Below, one piece after another: positions 16,937-57,107 of a stretch of DNA of 64,000 bases. The stretch is from Prorocentrum cordatum. Lineage: Eukaryota; Sar; Dinophyceae; Prorocentrales; Prorocentraceae. Within the stretch, counting starts at the first letter, position 1, and each line of letters starts with the position of its first letter. Both the position numbers and the translations under genes were made by a program. The stretch covers positions 103,501 through 167,500 of the forward strand of contig CAUYUJ010016139.1 in NCBI GenBank assembly GCA_963575745.1. Reading direction: 5' to 3'. The notes under the pieces were generated by a model. That model did no database searches. It had not been told where the DNA came from and saw only the letters and a program-made list of their open reading frames with translations.

Positions 16937-16972
16937 CCCGTAGCCATCTGGCTCAAGCCGTATCGGCTCAGG
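16937..16972 (+). other. Tandem DinoSL relic
   Basis: 16,937-16,957 reads CCCGTAGCCATCTGGCTCAAG, the dinoflagellate spliced leader with one base missing and one T-to-C change. It is followed immediately at 16,958-16,972 by CCGTATCGGCTCAGG, a more diverged copy lacking the first leader bases. The order (fresher outer copy, older inner copy) is that expected after two cycles of trans-splicing and reintegration. About 80 bp of pyrimidine-rich DNA lies directly upstream. Confidence 0.85.
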
Positions 16973-23486: not shown

Positions 23487-23552
23487 CAGTGTCCCTCCCC
23501 CTCCTCCTCCTCCCCCTCCTCCTCCTCCTCCTCCTCCTCCTCCTCCTTCTCC
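23487..23552 (+). repeat. CTC microsatellite at the 5' flank of the second LINE
   Basis: (CTC)n with a single CTT interruption runs directly into the spliced leader at 23,553. The 19-mer CTCCTCCTCCTTCTCCTCC at 23,537-23,555 recurs at 31,105-31,123 on the other side of the element, so the tract appears split by the insertion. Confidence 0.85.
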
Positions 23553-23574
23553 TCCGTAGCCATTTTGGCTCACG
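23553..23574 (+). other. DinoSL relic, 21 of 22 match
   Basis: TCCGTAGCCATTTTGGCTCA then CG in place of AG: a single mismatch to the canonical dinoflagellate leader. A second, degenerate leader (TCCGTAGCC, TCC, TGGCTCA) lies at 23,630-23,648, before the ORF1 start. The upstream CTC tract would serve as a ready-made polypyrimidine tract for re-trans-splicing at the internal GTAG. Confidence 0.93.
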
Positions 23575-23680
23575 GCTAAACGTAACGAAGGTTCAAGGAA
23601 CCGAGGTGTTGCGATTAACTTTGGACCCATCCGTAGCCTCCTGGCTCAGTGATCAGGGCGCCCCGCGCGCGGGCCGCCGC

Positions 23681-24910
23681 ATGCCTGTGGCGTCTCTCGG
23701 CGTCAAGAAGCCGAAGAAGCTGAAGAAGGGCCCGAGAAAGCACGACCTGGATGGCGACAACAGCGACGCCTCTGGGGCTACCGCCGCCCTGCCTCCTGGT
23801 GGCGCAGGTGCTTCTGCTGCTCTTTCTGCAGACAACCTCCCTGCCCCTGCTGATGGCGACCCTGCTCATGGCGCTCATGGTGAAGATGAAAATGAAGATT
23901 GGGGCTGGGAAGAAACTGGACCTGACGAGTACACTCGGTACCTGGCGAATGAGGAGGCCACCAAGCTGCTACGCGAATACAAACAGACGATGCTGGACTC
24001 CATCAAATCAACGGTGGGCGAGGCCATCAACCCCTTCGCCGAGCAGCTCGCCAAGCACGCCGAGTCCGCTGCTGAACTGGCCCAAGGGGTCAAGGACCTC
24101 CCCAAGATGGTTGACGATGCTGCTGCTAAGCGCCTGGATGGTCAGAATCGCCGCCTTCAGGAGCAGATCGACGGGATTCACATTCGGCTGCGTGCCCATG
24201 AGACCAGACTGGACACCCATGACTCCGACATTTCCTTCCTCAAGGCCGAGAACAGCAAGCTGCGCGAGCTCCTCGCCGTCGCCAACGATGTCCCAAAGGC
24301 CCCGCTGCTCTCCGCCGCCGGCTTCGATCGTGACACCGACCCGTGTGTCATCAAAGTCATTGCAGCCAAGCTCACGGCCCTCGACCAGGTTCAGCAGACC
24401 CTCTCTAATTGGATCGCCGAGGTCGGCATTGAGCCAAAATTCTTCAAGATCTCTTCCCCTGAGGCCGTCAGCCGCAGCTTCTCCATCAACTTCGTTGGGG
24501 CACCAGCCCCCGCTGCCCGTCGAGTTGCCAAAGTTCTCGGTGCCCAACGCCTCGGGCCTGGCCAATGGAAGCGCTTCGAGACCACCGCTGCAGACGGACA
24601 GTCCACGGCTCTGCACATCGGCCCCGACAAGAATCCGCGTCAGATTCGCATGGAGATGCAGGTGCGGAACATTCGGGACGCTTTCAAAGAGATCGATTAT
24701 TCAAAGCGCTGGTATGTTGACAAAGACCGAGGGTATGTCATGGCTGGCTGGGACCCGATTCTCAAGATCAGCCCGAACCCTGGCAACGCACCATTCACGC
24801 TCAACTGGGCCGACAATCTCATCACCAAGCTTGGTCTTCTGAAGCAGCAGTTATCGGCGGCTGCTGCCGCCATCGTCGCACCGCCTGAATCGGCTGAGCG
24901 GTGTCTTTAG
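23681..24910 (+). CDS. ORF1 protein of LINE-type retrotransposon
   Basis: About 409 residues from the ATG at 23,681, the first one downstream of both leader relics; the open frame extends upstream through the leader only because no stop intervenes. A basic N-terminus (KKPKKLKKGPRK) looks like a nuclear or RNA-binding signal. It is followed by an Ala/Asp-rich linker, a long predicted coiled coil (about residues 85-200), and a C-terminal alpha/beta region (about 215-409). This layout matches non-LTR retrotransposon ORF1 proteins, which trimerise and bind element RNA. It is followed within 30 bp by the endonuclease frame in another phase. Strong G/C third-position bias supports coding. Function is inferred from layout and neighbours; I could not match a named family. 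Confidence 0.7.
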   Translation: MPVASLGVKKPKKLKKGPRKHDLDGDNSDASGATAALPPGGAGASAALSADNLPAPADGDPAHGAHGEDENEDWGWEETGPDEYTRYLANEEATKLLREYKQTMLDSIKSTVGEAINPFAEQLAKHAESAAELAQGVKDLPKMVDDAAAKRLDGQNRRLQEQIDGIHIRLRAHETRLDTHDSDISFLKAENSKLRELLAVANDVPKAPLLSAAGFDRDTDPCVIKVIAAKLTALDQVQQTLSNWIAEVGIEPKFFKISSPEAVSRSFSINFVGAPAPAARRVAKVLGAQRLGPGQWKRFETTAADGQSTALHIGPDKNPRQIRMEMQVRNIRDAFKEIDYSKRWYVDKDRGYVMAGWDPILKISPNPGNAPFTLNWADNLITKLGLLKQQLSAAAAAIVAPPESAERCL

Positions 24911-25820
24911 TGGGCTGGGAAGATTACTGCGTGGAGTGCATCGCGGGCACGGCTTAGTGCCCTTTACTTCCTGGAATGCGCGGGCGCTTCTTCAATGCCA
25001 GGGTGCTCACTCCAAGGTGAAGCTGGACTACCTTCGCCGTTTAGACTTTTTGAATGGGGTGGTTTGCCTTCAGGAGGTGCATCAAGATGCTGTGCAAGTA
25101 CGAGACTTTATGGGGAAAGCTCATCGGGGCGTGCGCATCTTCTCTTCCCACTGCGAGGAATCGCTAGTGAAAGGCGGGGTCGCCACAGTTTTGCCTGCCT
25201 CCTGCCCCGCGGTGGCTCACGCTGACGAGCTTGTTCCAGGACGTGTGCTCCGTCTTCATCTGCAACGCGCGGGGCACCATCTTTTCCACCCCAATGCACG
25301 CAGCCATGGTATCAAGGGCGCCAAATTCCTGAAGATAGGCAAGGCGCTCCGTGCAGATATCAGTTTTGCCAGAAGTTCCCCGTTGACGGCCGCTGTGGTA
25401 GTACATGGGGGCTTCAACTTTGCCGCTTCGCCCCCTCTTCTTCCCCGCCGCCCTGGTCGTCGCGGGGGCCCAGGTAAAGGCCAACGTGCTCAATCTGCCA
25501 AGTGGTCTAAGATATTGGCACCTCTCGCGGAGTTCACATCGGACGAGCCTGCTCACTATGACGCCAACGCTCACTCGGCTTCGGCCTTGGATAGACTCTG
25601 GGCCAGCCTTCCTGGTTGGATCGTATGCCAAATTTATGCCGTTCCTCGCGTACTGGGGCTTCCTGGGGCCTTGGCCGAGAAGGAGGTGAGTGACCACGCA
25701 GCCCAGTCTTGTTCGTTCTCGCAGCGCTCAACAAAGCTTGAGGAATATGGGAATATCCCGAGGCACATTTCGAGTCAGAAGCATTCCGGAACTTGCTGGA
25801 TACCGTTACTCGGCAGCTAG
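24911..25820 (+). pseudogene. ORF2 part 1: AP-like endonuclease domain
   Basis: The frame reads FSGLGRLLRGVHRGHGLVPF from just after the ORF1 stop, with no ATG, so translation would need frameshifting or reinitiation. Endonuclease/exonuclease/phosphatase motifs appear in order: SWNAR (about 24,970), LQEVH (about 25,068), HGGFNF (about 25,405), ALDRLW, and SDHAAQ (about 25,690). In active enzymes the third motif is GDFN-like; here the Asp is absent, so the nuclease is probably dead. The frame stops at 25,820. The homologous reading continues in another phase from about 25,745 (HFESEAFRNLLDTVTRQ), so a frameshift lies there. Confidence 0.65.
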
Positions 25821-28800
25821 ATTTCATGCCCCGCTCACCTCCCAGGCAGATTGAACTCTTCAAGTGGGCAGTTAGGGAAGTCGCGCGAGAGATTCGCGAT
25901 TGTCTTATGCGGCGCGACTCCGAGGCGCTGGGCTCTCAGCTCCTTCAGGCGAGGCAGATTTTTCGGGCGGTTTGGCGAAATGATGTTTCTCTTGCCGTTC
26001 GCCTCCGTGCTGCGCATCAGACTGCCAGAGACTTTGTGGACATCTTGTCGGGTACTGTCTTGCTGGTCCATGCCCCCTCGTTCCAGCAGCGGAGCGAAGC
26101 TGTTCAATTGCGTCGTACCGACCTCCAACGCCGACACCTGGAGGCAGAGCTCGCTGGTGGACGTTCTACCCCTCAACTTCGCCACCAACTTCAAGCTCTT
26201 GAGAGGCGTGCGTCTATATGGTCACCTCTTTCTCGTCGACTGGTTCTTCAAGGCATTAAAGATTCATGTGCTGGCGCGTACTCAACGTCCGACAAGATTC
26301 ACATGCGCGACAAGCTCCTAGAACACTGGGCACCGATTTTTACTGCCAAACATATTAATGTTCCCGCTGCTCGCGAGTATGTGAAGGGTCTGGCCCAGCC
26401 AATGTGTCTTGATGATGCACCGCTCCCGACCCCGTCGCTCCTTCGTGCAGTCGCCAAGAAGTTTCGTCATTCCGAACCGGGCCCAGACGGCATTGACCTA
26501 CTCGGCGCGGCGCTCGCCATCTCTTGGTCTTTCGGTTCTTTCAGAAGCCATGATGTGGATTATCTCTGGACAGGCGTTGTTCAAGTCATCCAACGATGCG
26601 CTCCAAGTTTGGCTACCGAAAGCAGATGACCCTGCGGATAGTGTGGCCGCAGGTTGCTCTCGGCCCCCGTCCTCGGTCAGAGTGCTTGGGCTGCGCAGTG
26701 CCGATATTAAGATCATCGCGGCAACGATCAACGCGCGCTTCAGTGTTCTTTTCAAAACCTGGGCCCCTCGCTCTCAGCGAGGCCTTATCCCACAGAGGAA
26801 CTTCGGAGTGAACATTCTGGAGCTTGACACGGTCAGCAGGGTTTACTCAGATATGCCGTCGGCCGAGGCCAACGTCCCTGTCTTGGTTGCACTTGACTAT
26901 GGCGCGGCTTTTCCCAGTCTCTCAGGAGTTCATGTGCGCGGTGATCAAAGAGATGCAGGTGCCGCGTGCCTTTTTGTCCATCGTCGACCAGCTATACTTG
27001 GAGCTCGAGGCTTTTGCAATGGTCCGCAATACGCCTACACATGCCTGGTGGGTTACGTCTGGCATCGTCCAGGGCTGCTCAGTGAGCGGCTCCCTCTACG
27101 CTGCGGCCACTGCTCCATTTTTGTCGATCTCCAGCGCCAGCTTGAGGCGCCGAGGAAAGGTATTGCGCGAGCTTGTGCCGACGACATTGGTGCCGCCATC
27201 AGAGACATCCTCAGCCTGTCCATCTTATCGGACATCATGCTGCTCGCCGAAAGATTTGCCACGCTGTCTTTGAGGGTCGACAAATGCAACCTCGTTCCGC
27301 TGCACAAGCCGTTCTCGGAAGCTGTGGCAGCGGAGGTTCGCTCGCTGCTCTGCGCACATGTTCCATTCATCAATCGCATCAACATAGTCGAGTCCCTCAA
27401 GTACCTTGGGCTTATGCTTGGTCCTGCAGCCGATGCTGATTCGTGCTGGACAGCTCCTGCGATGAGGGCTCATGAATGATCCAAGTTGGCTGGCCACAGT
27501 CACCTTCCTGTGTCTCGCTTGCCAGTTCACCACAACACCCGCATCACCACAGTGCTGTCTTACGTCGCCCAATTCCGTCTGATGCCGCAGTGGCTAGTGC
27601 AGAGCGAACTTGTGGCCTTGTCACGTTCCTTCCGTTTACCCTTAGGCACTTTCTCTCGATGCCCGCATGGCTCCAGTTGCGCTCGGCGGGTGGGCCGACG
27701 ATTTCTTCATGGCTGGCGATGAGCACTGGGCCCCTACTTCGTACTGCTTACCGTACTCTGCCAGAGTTCGAGCGGTTGCATTCGTGGCTCTATCGTCAGC
27801 ACAGCCGCCTTGGAGATCACATCTCACTCGCTCAGTTGTCACCATCTCGGCCATACCCCGCCTTCTGGCGCAGTGAGGCATCCGTGGAGACGCTGTTCAA
27901 CATCAAGCACGGCCCGCTCCAGTCCACGATCTACACACACGAGCTGCTGTCAATTGCGCGACAGGCTGCTACGCACCGTCTCCACGTCCAGCCTTCTGGT
28001 GTGGGCCTGCAGAGGTGCATAGCGTTGGCGGTCAAGAAGCACTTCATCTCTCGTCCACTTTGGAACTTACTGGTGGTGCGGCTCGCCCTCGCCCATCCCG
28101 ACGTGTACTGTGATGGTGCATCTAAAGTACTTGCGGTGAGATGGCCCCACATCACGAAATATCTTCGCTCTTGTTCAACCGCGTGGGCTATGGCATAGTT
28201 GGAAACTGTTGCCAACGGATGGACTAAGTCTTCCCGCATTCTTGGTGACCGTGGGCGCCTTCCCTGCCGCTTTGGTTGTGCGGGCGCGGCAGACCAGCTC
28301 AATCACTACCCCCCATGCCCGAAGTTCCACTACATCTGCGAGGAGGCGTTCGGCTTCTCTCGGCCTGCTCACCCGCTTGGTCGTCTAGGCCTCTTCGGAT
28401 CCGCGGTGGATGTCGGCAAAGTGGTCTACGACATCGTGGTGATGCACTTCGCCTACCATGCGGCGTCCCACGGTGCCCCATCTGGGACCTGGTCACCTGC
28501 CTTCGCTCGCCCTCATGTCTTGGCTGCTACTCGTGCTGTTTCTCTCGGAGCGCGGCGACCTGATCATCTACCGTGGCGGCGGTCCAGGCCTTCGGTGCCA
28601 AGGCGTAAACCAGCGGTCTCATCTTCTTCGGCGGCCTCTTCATCCGCATCGCCCACACCGTCGTCATCGATAACCTCACCCAGCGCAGAAGACTCGTCAG
28701 ACAGTGGGTGTTCGTCTTCCACACTTCCATCCATGAGGACCATTGGCGGCGCTTTCGACCTCGTGAGTGGAGTTCCAGTGGCTGGCCTTGAGGCTGATGG

Positions 28801-29485
28801 CTTGCACGACACACTCTCGCCTAGTGGAGCGCCTACTTCGGGGGCTTTGGCAGGCAGAGAGTACCGACCCGTGTGCTGGTGCCTCACGGGCACGCGCTGC
28901 TCACCTGCCTCACCCCGCTGCCCTGTCACCCCGGGAATTGTTGTGGCGCAGTTCCGACCCGCAGACGCACAGTGGGGCCAGTCCTCACATGTTGAGGGAA
29001 CTGAACGTACGTCGCGTTCTCCCTTTCCGTCCTTGGGGCGCACTTGTCAGCAGGACTCTGAGCGGCAACGACGTGAACTCACCAGTCGGGTCACCTGCTG
29101 GGCATCCTCTTGGCCCCCATCCATCTTCTACACTGTCCCCCAGAACGACTTCGACACGTGGAGGGACTGGTGTGTGGATTACGTCTTCAGGGTGCTTCAC
29201 TATCGCGGCTTTTCCTCCCTGTCCGCGAACCACAGCCCCACCCTCATTCAAGACATGAAAAGAGCAGCTGGAGAAATATGTATGGCGGGTTGGCATGGCT
29301 CTACTTTCTCTCGCGAGCAACTACGTCAGCAACTTCTGCGTGGCACTTCTCAGAGCGATCCCGTTCTCCTTCACAGGACTTTTGTGAAAACTCGCTTGCA
29401 CATGGAAATGATTGAATGGCGTCCTGATCCATCTCGGATGGAGGATCAGAATCGCACACGCTTTCTTCAGTGGCTACTACTGTGA
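25745..29485 (+). pseudogene. ORF2 part 2: reverse transcriptase and C-terminal region
   Basis: A frameshifted non-LTR reverse transcriptase. Visible blocks: PGPDGID (about 26,480), RT motif A LVALDYGAAFPSL (26,881-26,920), motif B-like SGIVQGCSVSGSLY (27,058-27,100, different frame), motif C ACADDIG (27,171-27,191, back in the first frame) and NIVESLKYLGLMLG near 27,390. A C-x3-C-x8-H-x3-C knuckle (CRFGCAGAADQLNHYPPC) lies at about 28,265-28,320. The frame then stays open to 29,485 through a Ser/Pro/Arg-rich linker and a YTVPQNDFDTWRDWCVDYVF block. At least four phase changes make it inactive. No RNase H motif was found. Confidence 0.7.
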
Positions 29486-29565
29486 CATGGTGTGCAGCAC
29501 CTGTGTCTTCTGAGGTACCTGCGCCCAACCCGCTCTTCTGGTTCCCCAACTTCTCTCTTAGTCAG

Positions 29566-29811
29566 ATGGACGTCGACCCTATGGTGCCCAAGCCTCTATC
29601 CAGGACGTCCGAGGAAGCCTCTGTGGAGTACGAATACCTTCCCGACGATGCTACAGCTGCCCACACTGACTACTCATCGCCCACGGACGAGGACTTCCGC
29701 ACCATGGACGCAATGTGTGACAATTCTTCGCTGGCGGTCAAGGGCATTCCACCTCCATTCGAAGACGATCTCATGAGCGACGACGAGTACGACTACCTGT
29801 TGGCATCTTGA
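29566..29811 (+). CDS. Small acidic ORF inside the second LINE
   Basis: An 81-residue frame from ATG at 29,566 (MDVDPMVPKPLSRTSEEASV start, ending DDEYDYLLAS). It is rich in Asp, Glu, Ser and Tyr. It is probably a piece of the element's C-terminal coding region broken by a frameshift rather than an independent gene. Not recognised. Confidence 0.35.
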   Translation: MDVDPMVPKPLSRTSEEASVEYEYLPDDATAAHTDYSSPTDEDFRTMDAMCDNSSLAVKGIPPPFEDDLMSDDEYDYLLAS

Positions 29812-29958
29812 GCAGGGCAAGTACAACCACTGGCCTTACCACCCACGCCTCCGTCGTGGCCGGCGGCAGACTCAGGCGATCCCCCGCCCCCTGGCGCCGA
29901 TGCTGATGTTCTTGCCTGGCTTGGCCATGATCGTGCTCCACCCGCTGCATACTCTGAG

Positions 29959-31077
29959 GTGCCTTCGCTACATCAGGACCGCCCCCCTCCACTGCGACGC
30001 CCTGGTCTACACGGTCACCTCGGCCAACCTCAGGATGAGACACAGGGGCCACATGAAGATAATGATAACGGCACGGCGACATATCCCGAAGCTCTTCTCC
30101 CCTTGGTGCGCAGTCCTATCGCCATTCAGTGTCGCATGATAATGGATATGCTGCTACTGCCGCCTCTGCGGCAGCATCGTCGACGGCGGATCTACCTCCT
30201 GTGCGCCATGGCGGAGCAGCACATGTCGGGCAACGTCACCCTGGCTCTTCATCCTCCTGGAGCTCATAGACAGCTAGTCCGTCCCCGTCGGAGTCCGCAG
30301 GAGGTTCCCAGAGTGCTACTCCGTCCTCGTTTGCCTCCTCGAGTGCGCGCTGCGGGCCAAGGGCGTTTGTTGGGTCCCCAGGCTGCTAACACAGGGCCTC
30401 GGGGGTTGAACGTGTCGCCGCTGTGGGAATCGCTGCAGCAAAACACTTTGGGCGCGATTAACTTGCTGATTCCCCACATCATCCCTCCATCATCGACGAC
30501 CTCTTTGGTGGCACCTTGTACTTCACGTCCGCCAGCCGCTCCTCCCGTCGCGCGCGGCAAGCAGTCTCGCCATCCAGCTGCTCTCGACCCTGATCAACTT
30601 CACCTGGCGCTGCTCGCGCTCCACACCCTCTTCCCCACCATCATGGAGGACAAGGTGGGCCTGATCACCTGGCGATTACTACATCCTAACAGCCTGCTTG
30701 AGGATGACCCGTCTGATGCTGCGGAGGCTGAAGCCATTTTTCACGACGTGCAGCCTGGACCTGATGATGATGATCCTCAAGAGGTGGTGGAGGACACGGA
30801 GTTCCTCCCGCGTCTTCATGAAGCCGACAACTGGCCGACGGAAATGACGGAGTCCGACCCGAACTTCCTCGAGCTGGCCGCGGAGATCGAGGGGGGTGTC
30901 TTCCCTGACCATGTACCTGATGTTCATCGCGATCTTGACGACCTCATGGGCGTCCACATCGACGACGGCGACGACTTCGAGCCCCTCCTCGTCGACAACC
31001 CCCTCGACGGCGACACGGTGGTGCCCCTGAGAGGCATCGAGGCGGGCGCACGCGCGGCTGTGCGCGAGCGCGGGTGA
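29959..31077 (+). pseudogene. C-terminal acidic open frame of the second LINE
   Basis: A long frame to 31,077 with no ATG at its left edge (the first is near 30,136). It has a Pro/Arg-rich part, then a segment around LDPDQLHLALLALHTLFPTI, then a strongly acidic tail (DDDDPQEVVEDTEF, HIDDGDDFEPLL). G/C third positions predominate. The stop is 27 bp before the proposed 3' boundary. No known domain is recognised, and it may be an extension of ORF2 out of phase. Confidence 0.4.
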
Positions 31078-31104
31078 GGTGACGAGACGTTTCTGGGACG
31101 CTCG

Positions 31105-31266
31105 CTCCTCCTCCTTCTCCTCCTCCTACTCCTGATCCTCATCCTCGTCCTCGTTCTCCTCCTCCTCCTCCTCCTCCTCCTCCTCCTCCTCCTCCTCCTC
31201 CTCATCCTCATCCTCCTCCTCCTCCTCCTCCTCCTCCTCCTCCTCCTCCTCCTCCTCCTCCTCCTC
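31105..31266 (+). repeat. CTC microsatellite, 3' flank of the second LINE
   Basis: Begins with the 19-mer shared with 23,537-23,555 and continues as nearly perfect (CTC)n with occasional GTC, ATC and TAC interruptions. Confidence 0.95.
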
Positions 31267-49242: not shown

Positions 49243-49952
49243 GAGGAATGTGCGACTCAGCCAGCCGCACGTTACCCAGGGGCTAAATCTTCTGGAATCT
49301 AAAGACAAAGTTCGTCACCAAGAACATCGCGATGAGCTGGCGCACTGCATAAGTTATGGGGTGCGTCAGTCTGCCACAGCTGGCTTCAAGGATTCGCCGG
49401 GAGTAGATGCCCTCCCGCCCCGTACGCCGCACAAGCATTTTTTACGGGGTTGGCGCCAGGGGGGGGGGCCAACGCGCCTGGGGATTGCACGAAGTCTGGC
49501 AATTCCGGAGGGAGCTGTAGCTAGGCCTATGCATCTTGCCGCTGGGGGAGCTACTGTGGTTCCGTCCCTGCCGTCGCCCGCTGCCGCCGCCGCTGCCACT
49601 GATCATTGGCATCGCGTGTGCGGCAGCTGTATTTGCGGCGGCAAGTAGGTCGTACAAAAAGGCGCGCGCGCTTCCTTCGAGCGCTTTTATCAGCGCACTT
49701 ACTGGTCAGTCTCTGCGTAACGGATACACATGTGTATGATAGCCGAGCCCGTGAAGACCCAAGCCCCGGATCTAGTAAATCAAATGACAGTACGGTGCGG
49801 GCGTTGAATAAGGAATGTGCCCAGGAGACTCCAGGCCCTGGAGGATTCCTTGCCTGGTAAGGGCGGCGGTGATTTCCATGGTCAAGCCCCCATTGGATTG
49901 GTGTTCCACCAGCTTCCAGACCCTGCGTTCCTTATCTAGGGGTTCCATATCC

Positions 49953-49966
49953 AATGCCGTCACCGT
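49953..49966 (+). repeat. Target-site duplication, left copy
   Basis: AATGCCGTCACCGT, identical to 56,663-56,676. The last T coincides with the first base of the spliced leader. Confidence 0.9.
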
Positions 49967-50017
49967 CCGCAGCCATTTTGGCTCAAGCCATTTTGGCTCA
50001 AGCCGTTTCGGCGCGAG
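49966..50017 (+). other. Three stacked DinoSL copies
   Basis: 49,966-49,987 is the full-length leader with one change (TCCGCAGCC instead of TCCGTAGCC). 49,988-50,002 is a perfect 15-nt partial leader CCATTTTGGCTCAAG. 50,003-50,017 is a diverged partial, CCGTTTCGGCGCGAG (four changes). Partial copies begin exactly after the leader's internal AG, as expected when that AG serves as acceptor for the next trans-splicing event. The open frame that runs through here from 49,815 is accidental. Confidence 0.95.
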
Positions 50018-50131
50018 CTGGTGTTCTGGAGCTGGAGACAGCTCGCGTTTGTGTCCACTTACTTCGAAGCGGCGTAGTGGGCACGAGCCAACTTTCACGA
50101 GGACGGCCCCACCTGTGGCAGCCCGCGGGTC

Positions 50132-51202
50132 ATGGCGCCGTCACCTTCGGACCCTGGCATCATCCCAGGCGCGCGCAAGACACCTCTCTGGTCTTGCTCC
50201 TGCGGCTGTGATGGCAACTGGGCGTCCAGGACGCGCTGCCGCCTGTGCTGGAAGGCGGCTCCCTCCCATGTGGTGCAGGCAGCCAAGCTCTCGGCAGCAG
50301 CCGCCAGCGGGCCAGCTCCCAGCTCGTCCCGCCCACGTGGTGCCTGGGCGCAAGGCCCGCCAGGACAGGGGCAGCTGCTGGCGCAGCTGCAGCAGCTGCA
50401 GAAGCAGGTGGCTGAGCTCAAGGGAGAGCCCCCGCCTCCGACGGAGCCCTGGAAAGGACGCAAGCCCCCGCCCAGGAAGTCGGTCGAGGAGAGTCCTGGC
50501 ATCTCCTTCACGGACGTGCGCACCTTCTTGGCAAAGGAGGGGCTTGACACCAGCGCGGTGGAGGAGGCAGAGAAGGTTGCAGAGTCGAAGACGTTGGAGA
50601 GCAAGCAGCCTACTGCACAGACGCAGCGCTGGAGGGTCAAGGCCATGCGGGACAAGATCAAGAAGCTCGAGGCCCGCGAGTCAGCCATCCCGGAGCAGCA
50701 GGCCGCACTTGGCAAGGAGCTCCTGGAGCTCAGGGCTTCGCTCGGCGAAGAGAATCAGAAGCTTGCGGAGGGGGAGACCAAGTTGGTCAAGTTGCAGGCC
50801 AGCGAGCTCCCCGACCCGATTTTGGCAGTTGCAGCTGGGTTGGATGAGGACGTCGCCGCCAGCCAGGAGGCCAAGGACGCCCTCGCGGTCCTCGCCCGCT
50901 TGCAGAACGCAGCCAGCGAAAGCAAGAAGGCTGCCGCCGCTGCCAAGTCCGCTGCGGCTCCTCCTGGTCCTGCTGCTGGGGGTCCAGACGCAGGCGGCGA
51001 GCACCAACCTGTGCCAGAGGCAGACGACATCGACATGGAGCTGCTGGGAGGAGAAGGCTGGGAGGAGAAGCATGAGGAGTATGCCGCAGCCTCAGCAGCC
51101 CTCCGTGAGGCGACCCCCGAGCAGCGGGACGAGGCCAAGCGCAAGCTGCGGGGTGCCTTGGACGCGCTCTGGGCAGCAGGCAAGCGGCCTCGGCACCTTT
51201 GA
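50132..51202 (+). CDS. ORF1: RanBP2-type zinc finger, coiled-coil protein
   Basis: 356 residues starting at the first ATG with good context (TCATGG) downstream of the leaders. Near the N-terminus, residues 20-39 carry Trp-x-Cys, Cys26, Asn29, Cys36 and Cys39 (WSCSCGCDGNW ... RCRLC), a RanBP2-type zinc ribbon known to bind single-stranded RNA. Residues about 80-100 and 165-235 form Lys/Glu/Leu-rich coiled coils separated by a Pro-rich linker. An Ala-rich region and an acidic-basic C-terminus follow. As ORF1 it likely packages element RNA. ORF2 overlaps its end in the +1 frame. Very strong G/C third-position bias, no stops. Confidence 0.85.
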   Translation: MAPSPSDPGIIPGARKTPLWSCSCGCDGNWASRTRCRLCWKAAPSHVVQAAKLSAAAASGPAPSSSRPRGAWAQGPPGQGQLLAQLQQLQKQVAELKGEPPPPTEPWKGRKPPPRKSVEESPGISFTDVRTFLAKEGLDTSAVEEAEKVAESKTLESKQPTAQTQRWRVKAMRDKIKKLEARESAIPEQQAALGKELLELRASLGEENQKLAEGETKLVKLQASELPDPILAVAAGLDEDVAASQEAKDALAVLARLQNAASESKKAAAAAKSAAAPPGPAAGGPDAGGEHQPVPEADDIDMELLGGEGWEEKHEEYAAASAALREATPEQRDEAKRKLRGALDALWAAGKRPRHL

Positions 51203-54200
51203 CCCCAGGCCCATCGCGAGCCTGGACCTCGCCTGCACGGCGAGGTGCCCCCGCCATCCCTGGGTTGAGGGGGCAGGCGCGAGAGGGACCGTGGCGGCCG
51301 AATGTCTGCAGCTGGCCAAGCTGGCGCGGCCTTCGGAGAAGCTGGGCGCCAGCTTCCTCAGCATCAACGGCTCCACGTGGACCGAGTCCCAGACGGCTCT
51401 CGAGCAGCTGCTGGACGAGAAGGTCAGGGACGATGTGTATTTCATCCAAGAGACCCGCTTCACTTCGGCGCTGGCGGAAGGCTCGGCCCGCGCCTGGTGC
51501 AAGCGGAACGGCATCACTGCGGCCTTCGGAGAGTGCCGCAGCACGGGGGCGGCGGTCCAGGCAGTCTCGTCTGGGGTCGCGGTTCTGGTCGGGGAACACC
51601 GCGGAGTGGCAGCGATTGACCAGGCTTGGGGCCAGCACGCACCGAGGATCGTGGCCAGGCGCGTTGCCTTCGGGGACCTGGTCGTGGTGTGCGTCAGTTT
51701 GTACCTGCAGTGCTCGGTCAAACTCAACGAGTCCAACGTGGACCTCTTGAGTGAGCTGCAGGGTTTCCTGCTGAGCTTGCGGGAGCCCTTCGTAGTGGGG
51801 GCCGACTGGAACTTGGAGCCCAGCCTCCTCAGCAGCTCGTGGTGGCCACGAGCAGTGGGGGCAGTGATAGTGGCGCCTGAGGAGCCGACCTGCGGTGACA
51901 GCACCTACGACTTCTTCGTGATCTCAGACGTACTGGCTGGGCTAGGGCCGAAGGTGTCGGTGCTTAGACAGGCGACCACACACCCACACGTACCAGTCAG
52001 GCTCACCTTCGAGAAGTTGAGCAGCCAGGCAGGGATCTGGGTGCAGAAGGGCCCCGAGCCTTTCGAGCTGCCTGCGGCCAGGCAGGAGGGGATCCAGCCC
52101 GAGCCAGAGGAGGAGGACTCGCTGACGGGCTGGAAGGCGCCGCTCCTGGACGAGAAGGGGAGTCCGAACAAGGCGATCTCCGAGTTCTTTGTCCTGGCAG
52201 AGGAGCGCCTGATTCACCTCCTCGGCATCAAGGACGGCGCCAAGTACAGAGGCAGGGCGCAGGGGCTCAGGAGGGTACCCAAGCAGCTCATCCACCTCCT
52301 GCGCTCTGAGGAGGTCCGCAGGACCAGCCCGCTCACTCGTTGCTGGATCACGTTGGGGCGCCTGGCCACTCAGCTGGCGGCCGCGGCGTCGGTGCCTCAC
52401 CCCTCGCAGGGGCACCGCAAGCACGTCAAGCGCCTGCAGGAGGCCGCACTAGGCCTGGTCCCCAAGTTTGAGGCAGCTGGCTGTGACATTTTCGGCGGCA
52501 CCAAGATGGAGACGATGCTTGAGGAGATCTCGGGCAGGTCGCAGCAGGGCGGCATCTTCCTCCAGGCCATCAGTGCCGCCGTAGAGGTCAAGCGCAAGGA
52601 GGACGTGAAGCTCGCCAGGCAGCGCTGGAAGGAGTTCATGGCCGAGGCCCTCAGCGGGAACGGGAAGGGCGCCCACGCGATCATCAAGCAGGCCAACCTC
52701 GAGTCTTGCTCCATCCTCGGCCCAGGCGAGGGCGAGGCCCCCCCAGTCCCGCTGGTCGGGCAGCAGGCCCTGGACAGGATCCTGCAAGAGTGGAAGGCGC
52801 TGTGGCACAAGGACGGCTCCTCCAGCGTCCGCCCAGAGAACTGGGAGGAACCCTTCGGGTTGGACGCGATCACGGCGGAGGAGGTGCTGGCAGCGGCGAA
52901 GACCTTTCCCAGGAAGACGGCGCTGGGATGGGACGCATTCCACCCCAGGCTCATCCTCAGCTTAGGCAGGGTGTACGCCGAGAGGCTGGCCGAGATCTTG
53001 ACAGCCTGGGAACGCCGCCCTCAGGAGTCGGAGCTTTTTACCACGATCATTGCTTTCTTGGGGAAGCCCGACGGGGGCCGACGCCCGATCGGTCTCCTTT
53101 GCATGTGGCTGCGCATCTGGAGCCGCATCAGGCGCAAGTACTGCGCGGCCTGGGAGAAGGACCACACGCTCCCCGAATACTGGGGGGCAGACACGGACAC
53201 ATGTTGCGACAGGGCGGTTTACATTCACAACCTTCTGCTCGGCCTCGCGAGGGAGAAGAACTTCGAAGCGGCATCGGTCTACTTCGACATCAGCAAGTTC
53301 TACGAGCAGATCAGCCACGAGCTGCTGCTCGAAGCGGCCCGAGGCTGTGACTTCAACACAGGGTTGATACAGGCGCTGTGTGTGCTGTACTCGGGCCCTC
53401 GCAGAGCCAGGGCTGACCTAGCCCTCAGCGAGCAGCTGGTCATAGACGACACCGTCATCGCGGGCTGCTCCTGTGCGACGACCATGGCGAGGATCATGCT
53501 TCACGACCTACTCCTGCAGTCGAGGAAGATGTTGCCGATAGGCAGGGTGGCCAACGTGATTGATGACATCTCGGGCCACGGCATCGGCACGCGCAGGCTC
53601 GTCGTAGAGCAGATCGCCAGGTTCGCGAAGGGAGTGGCCACCATGCTGGGGGACAAGCGGCTCCCCATCAACTGGGGGAAGGCCAAAGCACTGGCTTCCT
53701 CAGCGAAGCTGAGGAGAGAGCTGCAGCAGCACGCCAACTGGGTCCTCGCAGACGAAGCCTTTGTCGCTGGCCACCGCGACCTCGGAGGAGACGCGACAGC
53801 GGGCAGCCACCGCAGAGTCGGGACGCAGGTGGCCAGGGAGTTGGCGGCGCTGCGGCAGGGCAACAACCTCACCAGGATCTTCGGCTCGGGGATGAGGCAG
53901 GCCAAGATCCAGAGGGCAGGCCCCGCGGCCAAGGCCCTGTGGGGCTCGGCCATCAGCGGGATACCTCCTGGGCGCATGAGGGCGCTCAGAATATCTGCAG
54001 CGAAAGCCGCCTGCAACCTGCCGACGGGCGCCGCGCTGACGTTCTGCCTGCAGTGCGCGCCCCAGGGCTGGAGGCAGGATCCGCTGGTAATTGCGACGGG
54101 CATGGCGGTCCAGGCGTTTGTGGCCATGAGCTGGTCTGGCCAGGCCTCGCCTGCGGCAGTGCAGGCCTGCCTCAGGGACAGCAGCCGTCTGGCCTCGCTG

Positions 54201-56540
54201 CAGAGGCCGTGGGCCGCGGTGCGCGACCCCGTCTCGGCGCTGGTGCTCACGCTAAGGCGAGTCGGCTGGGGCCTCAGAGCAGGCGGTCGCACCCTGACCG
54301 ACAGGGAGGGCTGCGAGTTCGATGTCATGAGATTCTCGCCCGCTTTCCTCGCCGCCAGGGTCAAGGAGCACACGCGTCAGGCGGCCTCGCTCGAGGAGTA
54401 CGCCAGCAGGCCCGAGACGTTCTGGCAGTGGGAGCTGCCGCCGTGGTGGACGCCGATCAACCAGCTCCTAGGGGCCAAAGGGTCAGATACCTGGACGGGC
54501 CACCACAAAGGCTGTTTGAGACGATTGGCGTCGTTGGCCAGCTGGCCCCAGGCCCGTCTGGCGAGGCATGGGCGTGAGATAGACCCGCTCTGCAAGCTCT
54601 GTGGCGCCGCCCCTGGGACGTTGCACCACAGACACCATGAGTGCCCAGCTTGGGCGGCCTGGAGGAGGGACTACTGCCCAGATCAGGTGAGCCAGGCTGC
54701 GGTGCAGGTCCACCGCATGGGGGCCCCCTTCGACGAGCTTTTCTGCCAGGGACTCTTCGCCGACATCAGCCTGCTGGTGGCCAGACCAGCCTGGAATGAC
54801 TGCTGGGCGAGACGATCCTGCGGGTGGGGGGACTGCATCCTGGTGGTTCCCGATGGGTCGTTCGTTTTCACCGACGGTTCGTGCCTGAACGGGGATTTCC
54901 CGCACGTCAGGAGCGCGGGCTGGGCGGTCATCGTGCACGGTCCAGAGGGGAGGCTCATCGCCGAGGCGTGGGGCGCAGTGCCCCCCAGCGACCTCCCGTC
55001 GCAGACGGCCAAGGCGGGCGAGGACTACGCTGCCGCCATCGGCCTTGCAGACATCATCGGGAACTACACGCTGCTCAGCGACTGCCTGAGCACGGTCAAA
55101 GCTGCGTCTAACCTGGCCAAGGCCTGCGGCCCCAGCTCCCTGCACGCCCACGTTTGGGCCAGGGTGGGAGATGCGGCGGAAGGCGTCACCATTCGCCACG
55201 CGCCCGCCCACCGCACTGAGGCCGCGGTGCAGGACGGGGATTTCACCCTCTTCGAGCTAGTGGGCAACAGGCGCGCCGACACCAGGGCAAAGGAAGGAGC
55301 GGCCTTGCATGCCACTGCGGAGCAGGACGCCCTGATGTTGGAGGGCTGCCTGGCTCGGGCGAAGGAGGCGGCCAGGTACGCGGCTGCCCTCGAGGTGCAC
55401 ATCACGGAGTCAGGGCTCAGAGACTCCTGGCCGCTCACCTCTCTGGACCTCGTGGACCTGGACCCCTGCGCCCAGTCGCCCGCCCTGGGGTTGCTGCTGG
55501 AAGCTGAGGAGTCGACTGCCCGTGGCCCTGGCGGCATGGCGGCCCTAGGGGCGGCTGCAGCGCTGGCGACGGCAGCGGCGGCAAGCCAGGGAGCCCAGCC
55601 CCAGGACCAGGCAGACTCGAAGGAGTGCATGAGGAAGGAAGCGGACGTGGGGTCAGGCGGGCCCAATAAGCCAGCCGTTGTTGAGTCGAGCGCGTCGGCG
55701 GCTTTGCATCGTGCGGTCCAGCGTCGCCGTGCTGAGCAGGCGGAGCGGTCAGCGCCCTCTGCCGCGGACGCACGTTGCCCGCCCATGTCGGCTATGCCGT
55801 TGCCCCCTCCCCCACCTTCCACCGCGGCCGTCCCGCCTCCGAGTGCTCTCTCGGGCCCTTCCAGCCAGAGGAGGGCCCCAGGGCCCATTTTGGAGACCTC
55901 AGACTCTGGCCAAAGGTCGAGGGTCTCATTTTTGTGTGGTTCGCGAGATGGCCTGCCCCAGGTCGACCCTGGAGAATCGGGAGTCTGGGAGGTCAACGGC
56001 CACCGTCTTCGCGAATCAAGAGTTTCAGGTGGGGACGGGCCTGAGTTTTTGGTTTGCGTGGCGTGCTGGATGTATTGCATGAAACCCAGGTACTGCCACA
56101 GGGGTCTGGCCAAGGCCTGCAGCGGGGCCCAGCGAGCTGACGACCCCAGGGCCAAAAAGGGCTCGAGGGCGCAGACACGGAATGATTTCGCGAAGTCGAT
56201 CCTGCCTGGGAAATCCAAGCAGCCGATCGACCAGCTGGCTCGGCCCACAGCGGCCACCCGCGCCAGGTGGGCCAAGTCGCTAGGCTTGGTCGCGGGCCCT
56301 GGGGGCGTGGGGGACTCCGAGGCCCCTGCAGGCTCCAGAGCCCCATCAGTGGAGCCCCCAGTGCTGCAGGAGCGGGCACCTGCCCCGCCTGCCCCTGGGA
56401 GGCTGTTCAGCCCAGGGCTCGAGGGAGCCCTGAGCTCCTTCGGCTTTGCCTGCGCGGCCGACGCACAGGAGCGTGGCAGGGTCGCCAGGGCGGCCAGGTC
56501 GGCGGACCCCAGGCCAGTGTTCGGCCTGAGCGCGGAGTGA
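51072..56540 (+). CDS. ORF2: endonuclease, reverse transcriptase, RNase H polyprotein
   Basis: About 1,822 residues if begun at ATG 51,072, which overlaps ORF1 by 131 bp; the frame is open upstream to 49,815, but that part is antiphase to ORF1 and probably non-coding. Domains: AP-like endonuclease with Asn99 (SINGSTW), Gln126-Glu127 (IQETR), Asp245/Asn247 (GADWN), TYDFFVIS and HPHVPVRL. Reverse transcriptase with motif A FDISKFYEQ (Asp739), motif B AGCSCATTMARI, motif C VIDD (Asp831-Asp832). CCHC knuckle CKLCGAAPGTLHHRHHEC from residue 1,174. RNase H with Asp1268 (FTDGS), Glu1317, Asp1337, Asp1403. The tail is Ala/Pro-rich with a Cys cluster CVACWMYCMKPRYC. All catalytic residues are kept, so it is potentially active in target-primed reverse transcription in the nucleus. 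VIDD in place of YxDD is unusual. Confidence 0.92.
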   Translation: MRSMPQPQQPSVRRPPSSGTRPSASCGVPWTRSGQQASGLGTFDPRPIASLDLACTARCPRHPWVEGAGARGTVAAECLQLAKLARPSEKLGASFLSINGSTWTESQTALEQLLDEKVRDDVYFIQETRFTSALAEGSARAWCKRNGITAAFGECRSTGAAVQAVSSGVAVLVGEHRGVAAIDQAWGQHAPRIVARRVAFGDLVVVCVSLYLQCSVKLNESNVDLLSELQGFLLSLREPFVVGADWNLEPSLLSSSWWPRAVGAVIVAPEEPTCGDSTYDFFVISDVLAGLGPKVSVLRQATTHPHVPVRLTFEKLSSQAGIWVQKGPEPFELPAARQEGIQPEPEEEDSLTGWKAPLLDEKGSPNKAISEFFVLAEERLIHLLGIKDGAKYRGRAQGLRRVPKQLIHLLRSEEVRRTSPLTRCWITLGRLATQLAAAASVPHPSQGHRKHVKRLQEAALGLVPKFEAAGCDIFGGTKMETMLEEISGRSQQGGIFLQAISAAVEVKRKEDVKLARQRWKEFMAEALSGNGKGAHAIIKQANLESCSILGPGEGEAPPVPLVGQQALDRILQEWKALWHKDGSSSVRPENWEEPFGLDAITAEEVLAAAKTFPRKTALGWDAFHPRLILSLGRVYAERLAEILTAWERRPQESELFTTIIAFLGKPDGGRRPIGLLCMWLRIWSRIRRKYCAAWEKDHTLPEYWGADTDTCCDRAVYIHNLLLGLAREKNFEAASVYFDISKFYEQISHELLLEAARGCDFNTGLIQALCVLYSGPRRARADLALSEQLVIDDTVIAGCSCATTMARIMLHDLLLQSRKMLPIGRVANVIDDISGHGIGTRRLVVEQIARFAKGVATMLGDKRLPINWGKAKALASSAKLRRELQQHANWVLADEAFVAGHRDLGGDATAGSHRRVGTQVARELAALRQGNNLTRIFGSGMRQAKIQRAGPAAKALWGSAISGIPPGRMRALRISAAKAACNLPTGAALTFCLQCAPQGWRQDPLVIATGMAVQAFVAMSWSGQASPAAVQACLRDSSRLASLQRPWAAVRDPVSALVLTLRRVGWGLRAGGRTLTDREGCEFDVMRFSPAFLAARVKEHTRQAASLEEYASRPETFWQWELPPWWTPINQLLGAKGSDTWTGHHKGCLRRLASLASWPQARLARHGREIDPLCKLCGAAPGTLHHRHHECPAWAAWRRDYCPDQVSQAAVQVHRMGAPFDELFCQGLFADISLLVARPAWNDCWARRSCGWGDCILVVPDGSFVFTDGSCLNGDFPHVRSAGWAVIVHGPEGRLIAEAWGAVPPSDLPSQTAKAGEDYAAAIGLADIIGNYTLLSDCLSTVKAASNLAKACGPSSLHAHVWARVGDAAEGVTIRHAPAHRTEAAVQDGDFTLFELVGNRRADTRAKEGAALHATAEQDALMLEGCLARAKEAARYAAALEVHITESGLRDSWPLTSLDLVDLDPCAQSPALGLLLEAEESTARGPGGMAALGAAAALATAAAASQGAQPQDQADSKECMRKEADVGSGGPNKPAVVESSASAALHRAVQRRRAEQAERSAPSAADARCPPMSAMPLPPPPPSTAAVPPPSALSGPSSQRRAPGPILETSDSGQRSRVSFLCGSRDGLPQVDPGESGVWEVNGHRLRESRVSGGDGPEFLVCVACWMYCMKPRYCHRGLAKACSGAQRADDPRAKKGSRAQTRNDFAKSILPGKSKQPIDQLARPTAATRARWAKSLGLVAGPGGVGDSEAPAGSRAPSVEPPVLQERAPAPPAPGRLFSPGLEGALSSFGFACAADAQERGRVARAARSADPRPVFGLSAE

Positions 56541-56662
56541 CGGTCGCGCTTCGGGGTCTGGGCCTGGTCGGCTGCGGGCCCGTGCAAGCTCTGTTTGTGG
56601 GGCCGTAAGACGGCGTCCGAATTTGTTGGTGCATGACAAGCCCCAGGGTTATAGGATAAAAA
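56541..56662 (+). other. 3' UTR and A-tail of the LINE
   Basis: 122 bp between the ORF2 stop and the right target duplication, ending GGGTTATAGGATAAAAAAA. The seven-A run overlaps the first AA of the duplication. No AATAAA signal is seen, which is usual for dinoflagellates. Confidence 0.8.
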
Positions 56663-56676
56663 AATGCCGTCACCGT
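56663..56676 (+). repeat. Target-site duplication, right copy
   Basis: AATGCCGTCACCGT, a perfect match to 49,953-49,966. It is followed by AGTAAAACAAAGC, the continuation of the pre-insertion locus. Confidence 0.9.
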
Positions 56677-56774: not shown

Positions 56775-56796
56775 TCCGCAGCCGTGTTGGCTCAAT
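56775..56796 (+). other. DinoSL relic, 18 of 22 match
   Basis: Reads TCCGCAGCCGTGTTGGCTCA then AT; four differences from the canonical leader. One (CCGCAG for CCGTAG) is shared with the outer leader at 49,966. Confidence 0.8.
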
Positions 56797-56834: not shown

Positions 56835-57107
56835 ATGTCGGCCGCACGCTTCCATCGCGGCTGCTTCCAGACACCGTTGCGACGAGTTGAGATCTCCAGC
56901 TGGCACTCGTTGGGAAGCGCTCGGCAGAGCATCTTCCTGCGTGGGCTGGCAAACGACCTCCTCGCGGCCTCGGCGCCTGGGCTCGTCGTGAGCTCGTGGA
57001 GCCACCGCTTCACGGCCGACCGTTTCTACTGGCTTGGCAAGCCGGACATACCAGGCGAGTTCGACGCGGGCTTGGCCACGGTGCGAAGGATTGAGGGGTC
57101 TGAGTGA
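56835..57107 (+). CDS. SL-tagged small hypothetical protein
   Basis: 90 residues from the first ATG after the leader relic (context ACCATGTCGG), ending EFDAGLATVRRIEGSE and a TGA. Codons are mostly G/C-ending and the composition is normal (FHRGCFQTPLRRVEISSWHS; FTADRFYWLGKPDIPGEFD), unlike the repeat-driven frames nearby. It is presumably a retrogene derived from a trans-spliced mRNA, possibly 3'-truncated. No family is recognised. No target duplication or poly(A) was found. Confidence 0.45.
   Translation: MSAARFHRGCFQTPLRRVEISSWHSLGSARQSIFLRGLANDLLAASAPGLVVSSWSHRFTADRFYWLGKPDIPGEFDAGLATVRRIEGSE

Follow-up and report, generated by a model that had tools for sequence, protein, structure and literature searches.

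LINE-A, a long interspersed nuclear element (LINE) in a 64,000-nucleotide stretch of the genome of the dinoflagellate Prorocentrum cordatum (contig CAUYUJ010016139.1, positions 103,501 to 167,500 of the forward strand; hereafter the window), appears to have been copied by reverse transcription from a trans-spliced mRNA, right up to the leader. The insert begins with the dinoflagellate spliced leader (SL; DinoSL), ends in a short A-run and is enclosed by a perfect 14-bp duplication (Table 1), all of which the initial annotation had claimed and all of which we verified. Its further claim, copying from a trans-spliced mRNA to the very 5' end, is supported by the family: among 28 copies with a complete 5' end, the window copy and 6 more carry a fresh SL exactly behind the same AG. 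The remaining 21 copies carry none; SL capture by LINE-A is optional, not required. We consider it probable that LINE-A is inserted from two kinds of RNA, a major leaderless one and a minor trans-spliced one, with optional and recurrent capture of the SL.

The leader array of the window copy

Two fresh SL units stand in tandem at the 5' end of the window copy, a 22-nt unit TCCGCAGCCATTTTGGCTCAAG and a 15-nt unit CCATTTTGGCTCAAG truncated precisely behind the SL's AG, and this array is a record of at least two rounds. An SL at the inserted 5' end, with the next unit cut after AG, is the pattern by which DinoSL retrocopies are recognized. The 5' duplication AATGCCGTCACCGT and the fresh SL overlap by one base, the first T of the SL, and at the other end the A-run has 5 A, or 7 with the 2 A common to the duplication. 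With up to 3 mismatches allowed, a 21-mer of the SL found 0 matches in 100 shuffles. The duplication is unimpressive taken alone (2 mismatches allowed, 0.37 expected, at least two in 4 of 100 shuffles); it becomes convincing because it abuts the SL and the A-run and because copy-specific duplications were found in 20 of the 20 copies with both ends available.

Two other readings of the array were not upheld. The last 15 nt of the family 5' end AGCCGTTTCGGCGCGAG (50003-50017) resemble an old SL, with 4 mismatches in 15, but this third SL-like unit is no trace of the last cycles of the window copy: it is shared by 28 of the 30 copies extracted from the genome, and the other two are 5'-truncated. 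It belongs to the constant part of the family and is perhaps an SL fixed long ago. Nor is there support for the CCGCAG of the window copy as an SL variant of the species, as the other six fresh-SL copies among the 28 read CCGTAG.

DinoSL-tagged retrogenes and the 'mRNA recycling' that they imply go back to Slamovits and Keeling 2008, as cited in PMC3229502 and PMC6050394, and tandem SLs cut after nucleotide 7 at AG have been described in dinoflagellate retrogenes (PMC3229502). As far as the available passages of these papers go, LINE-A resembles such retrogenes in its genomic SL at the 5' end, its tandem SLs truncated at AG and its older, more degenerate units. It differs in that what is tagged here is the retrotransposon, complete with its target duplications and A-run, and in that SL-plus and SL-minus junctions occur side by side within one family; the retrogene passages name no SL-ended LINE. 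In the literature that we searched, whose coverage leaves out most subscription papers, there was no report, among the papers listed, of a LINE with an inserted SL 5' end. The rescue by SL trans-splicing of a gene with a retrotransposon inserted upstream in Paulinella appears, from the part of the source available, to be a different matter (PMC6053224).

Junctions, target and the origin of the leader

A 683-base query from the 5' end of LINE-A gave 133 candidates in the genome assembly (4,128,499,153 bases, 4.13 Gb, in 21,875 contigs), of which 40 were scored, at 88-100% identity, and 30 cut out (L033-L062, the window copy being L033). One sister copy is 99% identical to the window copy over 683 bp, in keeping with the initial description of the element as young. 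Apart from L037 and L062, which are 5'-truncated, all have a complete 5' end, with no fresh SL in 21, one in 5 and two in 2 (L033 and L060). The SL-minus copies all begin exactly at AGCCGTTTCGGCGCGAG, the element's own AG, and in 7 of 7 SL copies the fresh SL is joined exactly behind that AG, tandem SLs being cut exactly after the AG of CCG(C/T)AG. Genome-wide, the exact 17-mer of the 5' end occurs 76 times, 14 of them directly behind an SL 3' end, while the reversed-pattern controls had 0 matches. In a FastTree tree of the 28 copies, read by eye and without support values, SL copies are spread over several branches; capture therefore seems to be recurrent, to judge from the sequences.

These counts bear on the initial proposal of a promoterless, SL-dependent element that regains its leader after each cycle, which would require that SL-minus copies lost their SL later. 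The tandem SLs in L033 and L060 and the spread of SL copies over several branches would fit such an element. However, in the 15 SL-minus copies with both ends read, the initial AG directly adjoins a copy-specific duplication; 62 of the 76 exact 5' ends have no exact SL 3' end in front; and independent loss to an identical base in so many copies is unlikely. Obligate dependence is thus very improbable, and that part of the initial proposal was not upheld. The claim that LINE-A needs no internal 5' promoter is likewise disfavoured, because the SL-minus copies share one start, implying a defined RNA 5' end.

An alternative route to the same junctions is that the reverse transcriptase switched templates from LINE RNA to SL RNA or to an SL-bearing mRNA, the SL being added without trans-splicing. 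LINE reverse transcriptases are capable of template switching, and two 5' junctions do contain extra nucleotides: ahead of SL nucleotide 1 there are 2-3 in L050 and one G in L054. Against this, all seven SLs follow exactly after the AG, the tandem SLs are cut exactly at AG and no SL intron is present, and we regard template switching as improbable. In L050, L054 and L060, SL nucleotide 1 is present and is not provided by the duplication; with the extra nucleotides of the first two, we infer that reverse transcription ran to the cap.

Whatever the target, the SL-minus copies start at the same base, and so their RNA probably began at a fixed point, the A of this AG. As far as junction sequences can tell, this suggests a promoter at or just ahead of the element, belonging either to LINE-A or to the target repeat, or else processing of the 5' end. 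L1Tc, of the L1Tc/ingi LINEs of trypanosomatids, hosts that likewise trans-splice an SL onto polycistronic transcripts, has the Pr77 promoter, a ribozyme like that of hepatitis delta virus (HDV) and unspliced transcripts, which start from Pr77 (PMC8190864, available in part); by analogy, the SL-minus majority of LINE-A could be the counterpart of those transcripts. Unlike L1Tc as described there, a minority of LINE-A copies carry an SL and no such ribozyme is found by Rfam at the 5' end. An HDV-like ribozyme at this position has no Rfam support, although another fold is possible: neither the window copy (gathering threshold) nor 301 bases of L035 (E up to 10) had an Rfam match at the 5' end, and one HDV-like match in L035 (E=5.6) lies ~124 nt inside the element. 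A possible 7-bp pairing, GCCGTTT with AAGCGGC, was seen by eye, in copies that vary too little for covariation.

LINE-A is a target-specific LINE, mostly inserted at the end of a ~170-bp dispersed repeat. Of the 30 copies, 22, the window copy among them, have this repeat as immediate left neighbour, and the duplications, of 13-15 bp, are copy-specific and in most of the 20 copies read resemble a common sequence, AATGCC..CACCGT; target specificity follows from the two together. The boundaries were read by eye; 17 duplications are perfect and 3 have one mismatch, and between copies 0 of 274 comparisons were identical. Both SL-minus (15) and SL-plus copies (5: the window copy, L042, L050, L054 and L060) are represented, and the right flanks of the 20 differ from one another. 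In L034, L045 and L046 two elements stand head-to-tail, the left flank being the 3' end of another LINE-A, at a regenerated target. R1 and Tx1L share with LINE-A an APE-type endonuclease, a near-fixed duplication length and a conserved target; unlike theirs, the target of LINE-A is usually the end of a dispersed repeat, and its 5' end may be an SL.

The recurrent left neighbour would also be expected if the conserved ~170 bp were the promoter of LINE-A, its true 5' end lying further upstream. However, the repeat is ~72-84% identical between copies in the main alignments versus 91-99% for the element, and because of this greater divergence we take it to be older than LINE-A. It was also not found in 8 of 30 copies, three of them with the 3' end of another LINE-A in its place, and its final 14 bp recur to the right of the element in a form specific to each copy. 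That the repeat is part of the element is therefore highly improbable. Sequence shared upstream of 49966 had been named in the initial annotation as damaging to its case; sharing was indeed found, but what is shared is an older repeat, marked as target DNA by the duplications, and the case stood.

We give almost no credence to the SL being part of the target, whether as an older retrogene ahead of the LINE or with LINE-A as an inserter into SL genes. Two of the 19 sister copies do have an exact SL immediately to the right of their 3' duplication. However, in 5 of 5 SL copies with both ends the SL lies within the duplications, the duplications are not SL sequence, and no GT, the start of the SL intron, follows the SL in LINE-A or in LINE-B, a second LINE of the window described below. 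SLACS, CRE and CZAR of trypanosomatids also bring a LINE and an SL together in one locus, by inserting into SL RNA genes; unlike them, LINE-A has its SL as the end of its own RNA, at an unrelated target. Nor was there support for right flanks generally starting with SL relicts: besides the 2 exact SLs, L081 scores 10 (local maximum 7), and the remaining 17 of 20 score 4-8, inside the range of their own controls or slightly above it.

In the two-RNA model, LINE-A inserts at AATGCC..CACCGT, usually at the right end of the repeat, as observed. The junctions suggest that the bottom strand is nicked before AATGCC; the ...CATT-3' end exposed in this way could base-pair with the RNA at its A-run and act as primer for reverse transcription, a step modelled on the target-primed reverse transcription of LINE-1-type elements. 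The major RNA would begin with the A of the AG that opens the element (AGCCGTTTCGG) and give the leaderless copies whose junctions we observe. The minor RNA would derive from a transcript started upstream, in which the same AG would serve the host trans-spliceosome as acceptor for the capped 22-nt DinoSL, joined to CCGTTTCGG; the exact AG boundary argues for trans-splicing. Reverse transcription of this RNA would proceed through to SL nucleotide 1, as the junctions indicate. An SL-bearing copy could then offer the AG of CCGTAG as the next acceptor, which would yield the tandem 22+15-nt array of the window copy and one sister. Several points weigh against this model. Both kinds of RNA are deduced from DNA junctions, and the start at AG could be explained by 5' processing. 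The ~170-bp repeat is missing on the left in L034, L036, L037, L045, L046, L048, L058 and L062, and the 3' side was retrieved for 20 of the 29 sister copies, the end being reached in 19 (all but the L049 stretch).

Coding capacity of LINE-A, and a second LINE

The initial annotation held that both open reading frames (ORFs) are open and all catalytic motifs present. The frames are indeed open, and the residues invariant in a six-sequence alignment include those that we take to be catalytic in endonuclease, reverse transcriptase and RNase H; the endonuclease SDH motif, however, reads xPH in 6 of 6 sequences. Endonuclease and reverse transcriptase residues thus stand in one ORF, as expected of an APE-type LINE. 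The endonuclease domain was assigned through relatives, not by Pfam on the window copy (relative P0001 matches Exo_endo_phos), and reverse transcriptase was the sole Pfam match of the window ORF2, below the cut-off. The reverse transcriptase part of ORF2 (501 residues searched) matched a 1604-aa protein at 44%, and this region of a profile matched R2 in PDB (E=2.5e-4). ORF1 had no Pfam match; its N terminus looks RanBP2-like by eye. Human LINE-1 likewise has ORF1 and ORF2, target-primed insertion, duplications and an A-run; LINE-A differs from it in its RNase H domain, short A-run, target preference and SL-bearing 5' ends.

Translation of ORF2 is less straightforward. Its frame has no ATG from the ORF1 stop to the endonuclease domain, which tempers the initial description of the element as possibly active, and the coding signal shifts from the ORF1 to the ORF2 frame at ~51184-51200 (51184 is the best switch point, and the stop lies at 51200-51202). 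Known +1 frameshift sites resemble the stop context found here, CTT TGA C followed by a hairpin, and our suggestion from the sequence is that ORF2 may be reached by a +1 frameshift there. The 45 nt downstream of the stop fold more stably than every sampled element window; windows of 28 nt and 60 nt do not stand out (8% and 11%), and an inverted repeat comparable to the hairpin occurs at 4.6% of positions. An alternative start is offered by the nearest upstream ATGs of the ORF2 frame, which lie within ORF1 at 51072 and 51081.

LINE-B, decayed and of another family, has a Pfam endonuclease match (E=1.4e-6) and a pieced reverse transcriptase match (RVT_1, 2.3e-6, below the curated cut-off); single frames had no Pfam match for reverse transcriptase. 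By tblastn it did not match the LINE-A proteins or P0001-P0005, there were no homologues among 7992 scored candidates, and its 3' end has no A-run. A second, older SL relict lies 77 bp inside LINE-B, at 23630-23648. The stretch between its two SLs may have lain upstream of an earlier insertion and been picked up when transcription read through it.

Table 1. Features of LINE-A, its target and LINE-B in the window (positions of the 64,000-nucleotide stretch)
Feature	Position	Strand	Remark
LINE-A insert including duplications	49953-56676	+	flanked by perfect 14-bp duplications
~170-bp dispersed repeat, left side of target	49791..49966	+	ends at insertion site
5' target-site duplication AATGCCGTCACCGT	49953..49966	+	exact
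Fresh DinoSL TCCGCAGCCATTTTGGCTCAAG, 22 nt	49966..49987	+	1 mismatch in 22 (CCGCAG for CCGTAG)
Second SL unit CCATTTTGGCTCAAG, 15 nt	49988..50002	+	no mismatch; cut exactly after AG of SL
LINE-A family 5' end AGCCGTTTCGGCGCGAG	50001..50017	+	inferred acceptor for trans-splicing is its AG
ORF1, 356 aa, N terminus rich in cysteine	50132..51202	+	open frame
Candidate +1 frameshift site: CTT TGA C at the ORF1 stop, then a 6-bp hairpin	51197..51225	+	suggestive
ORF2 frame: endonuclease, reverse transcriptase, Zn-finger-like region, RNase H, C-terminal Cys/His region	51203..56540	+	open
APE-type endonuclease	51360..52013	+	Q78, E79, D197, D232, H258 invariant in six sequences
Reverse transcriptase core	53064..53693	+	RVT_1 E=1.3e-4; D691, D783, D784 invariant
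RNase H, approximate limits	54860..55300	+	D1220, E1269, D1289, D1355 invariant
3' untranslated end	56541..56662	+	A-run 56658-56662
3' target-site duplication AATGCCGTCACCGT	56663..56676	+	exact
LINE-B, decayed, another family, in (TCC)n repeat	23553..31104	+	starts with DinoSL
LINE-B DinoSL	23553-23574	+	1 mismatch
LINE-B candidate 19-bp duplication CTCCTCCTCCTTCTCCTCC	23537..23555, second copy 31105-31123	+	low-complexity, weaker evidence

Genomic spliced leaders beyond LINE-A

The assembly contains 7201 + 7017 (14,218) exact SLs, and none of the reversed pattern. We read 29 SL occurrences in 28 loci, 20 of them with 6.6 kb downstream. Eighteen of the 29 sites lie behind a microsatellite, 14 TCC-like and 4 GGA-like by one rule, which was fixed only after the flanks had been viewed; among 11,200 random positions in the same loci the background is 1.7% and 1.3%, respectively. 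Downstream, 13 of the 20 loci gave LINE protein matches (E up to 1e-5), without exception on the same strand as the SL, and a 14th, L027, has weak Pfam matches to endonuclease and reverse transcriptase (0.0017 each). LINE-B of the window fits this pattern. The SL-capture route may thus be general for LINEs of this genome, on a small sample. Against such a generalization, 6 of the 20 loci showed no LINE match in the 6.6 kb downstream, and the loci were a non-random choice, forward-strand sites listed first on few contigs, with strand as the only control.

The two exact SLs directly behind a 3' duplication, in L077 and L082, may concern host mRNAs. To the right of L077, at a LINE-A target, is an SL-tagged stretch of 1.95 kb that none of the LINE proteins used matched. 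It ends in ATAAAA; its terminus reads GTGCTATAAAA, followed by AATGCTATCACCGT, 12/14 like the duplication. A host SL-bearing mRNA inserted by the LINE-A machinery would look like this, in what is a single case; the stretch behind L082 is partly masked. A broader reading, on which we are evenly divided, is that most genomic SLs are 5' ends of LINEs, and that LINE machineries, each with its target as a fingerprint, copy their own and host SL-bearing mRNAs back into the genome and so are the source of mRNA recycling. The fingerprints would then be (TCC)n/(GGA)n for families such as LINE-B and AATGCC..CACCGT for LINE-A.

Other SLs were seen in passing. At 16938-16972 of the window, a degenerate SL and a second one cut at AG stand behind a pyrimidine-rich tract and ahead of a short ORF, probably another SL-tagged retrocopy. 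An SL relict at 56775-56795 (4 mismatches in 22) lies ~100 bp right of the LINE-A duplication, with an ORF behind it whose ATG is at 56835; it had no duplication of at least 8 bp and no Pfam match. Of 38 stretches in IMG/VR that matched a pattern for relatives, none was confirmed. One contig there (IMGVR_UViG_3300045993_001077, 7157 bp, 22% GC; L001:1936-2913, minus strand) has two exact DinoSLs, a 254-aa ORF, GC-richer by eye, directly behind one of them, and a family 41 glycosyltransferase gene; it looks like a giant-virus-like contig with a copied-in dinoflagellate SL-bearing mRNA, and no clear duplication was seen around the SL-tagged ORF. A contig of a Dehalococcoidia metagenome-assembled genome (L003:4334-4354, minus strand) has an exact SL followed by GTACGCAACC and the Sm-like AATTTTTTGG, and has the appearance of an SL RNA gene from a dinoflagellate, present in the bacterial assembly through contamination.

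Song et al. 2018 state that the source of reverse transcriptase for dinoflagellate retroposition is unknown and favour Ty1/copia (PMC6050394); in the available portions of this and other papers the enzyme is called unknown or attributed to Ty1/copia or unspecified elements (PMC6050394, PMC12014239, PMC3942190), and LINEs have been proposed for viral inserts (PMC10235124, in the part available). For the enzyme that returns dinoflagellate mRNAs to the genome, stated to be unknown in the passages of PMC6050394 at hand, an SL, an A-run and a copy-specific duplication together provide a fingerprint. SL-tagged retrocopies would be assignable to LINE families by their targets, and genomic SLs used as tags of retrogenes may often mark LINEs. 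In LINE-A, SL-plus and SL-minus RNAs both seem to be heritable, so that promoter use would be readable from DNA. If this is general, LINEs would be the machinery that handles SL-bearing mRNAs in this genome, and the source of mRNA recycling in dinoflagellates would become testable.

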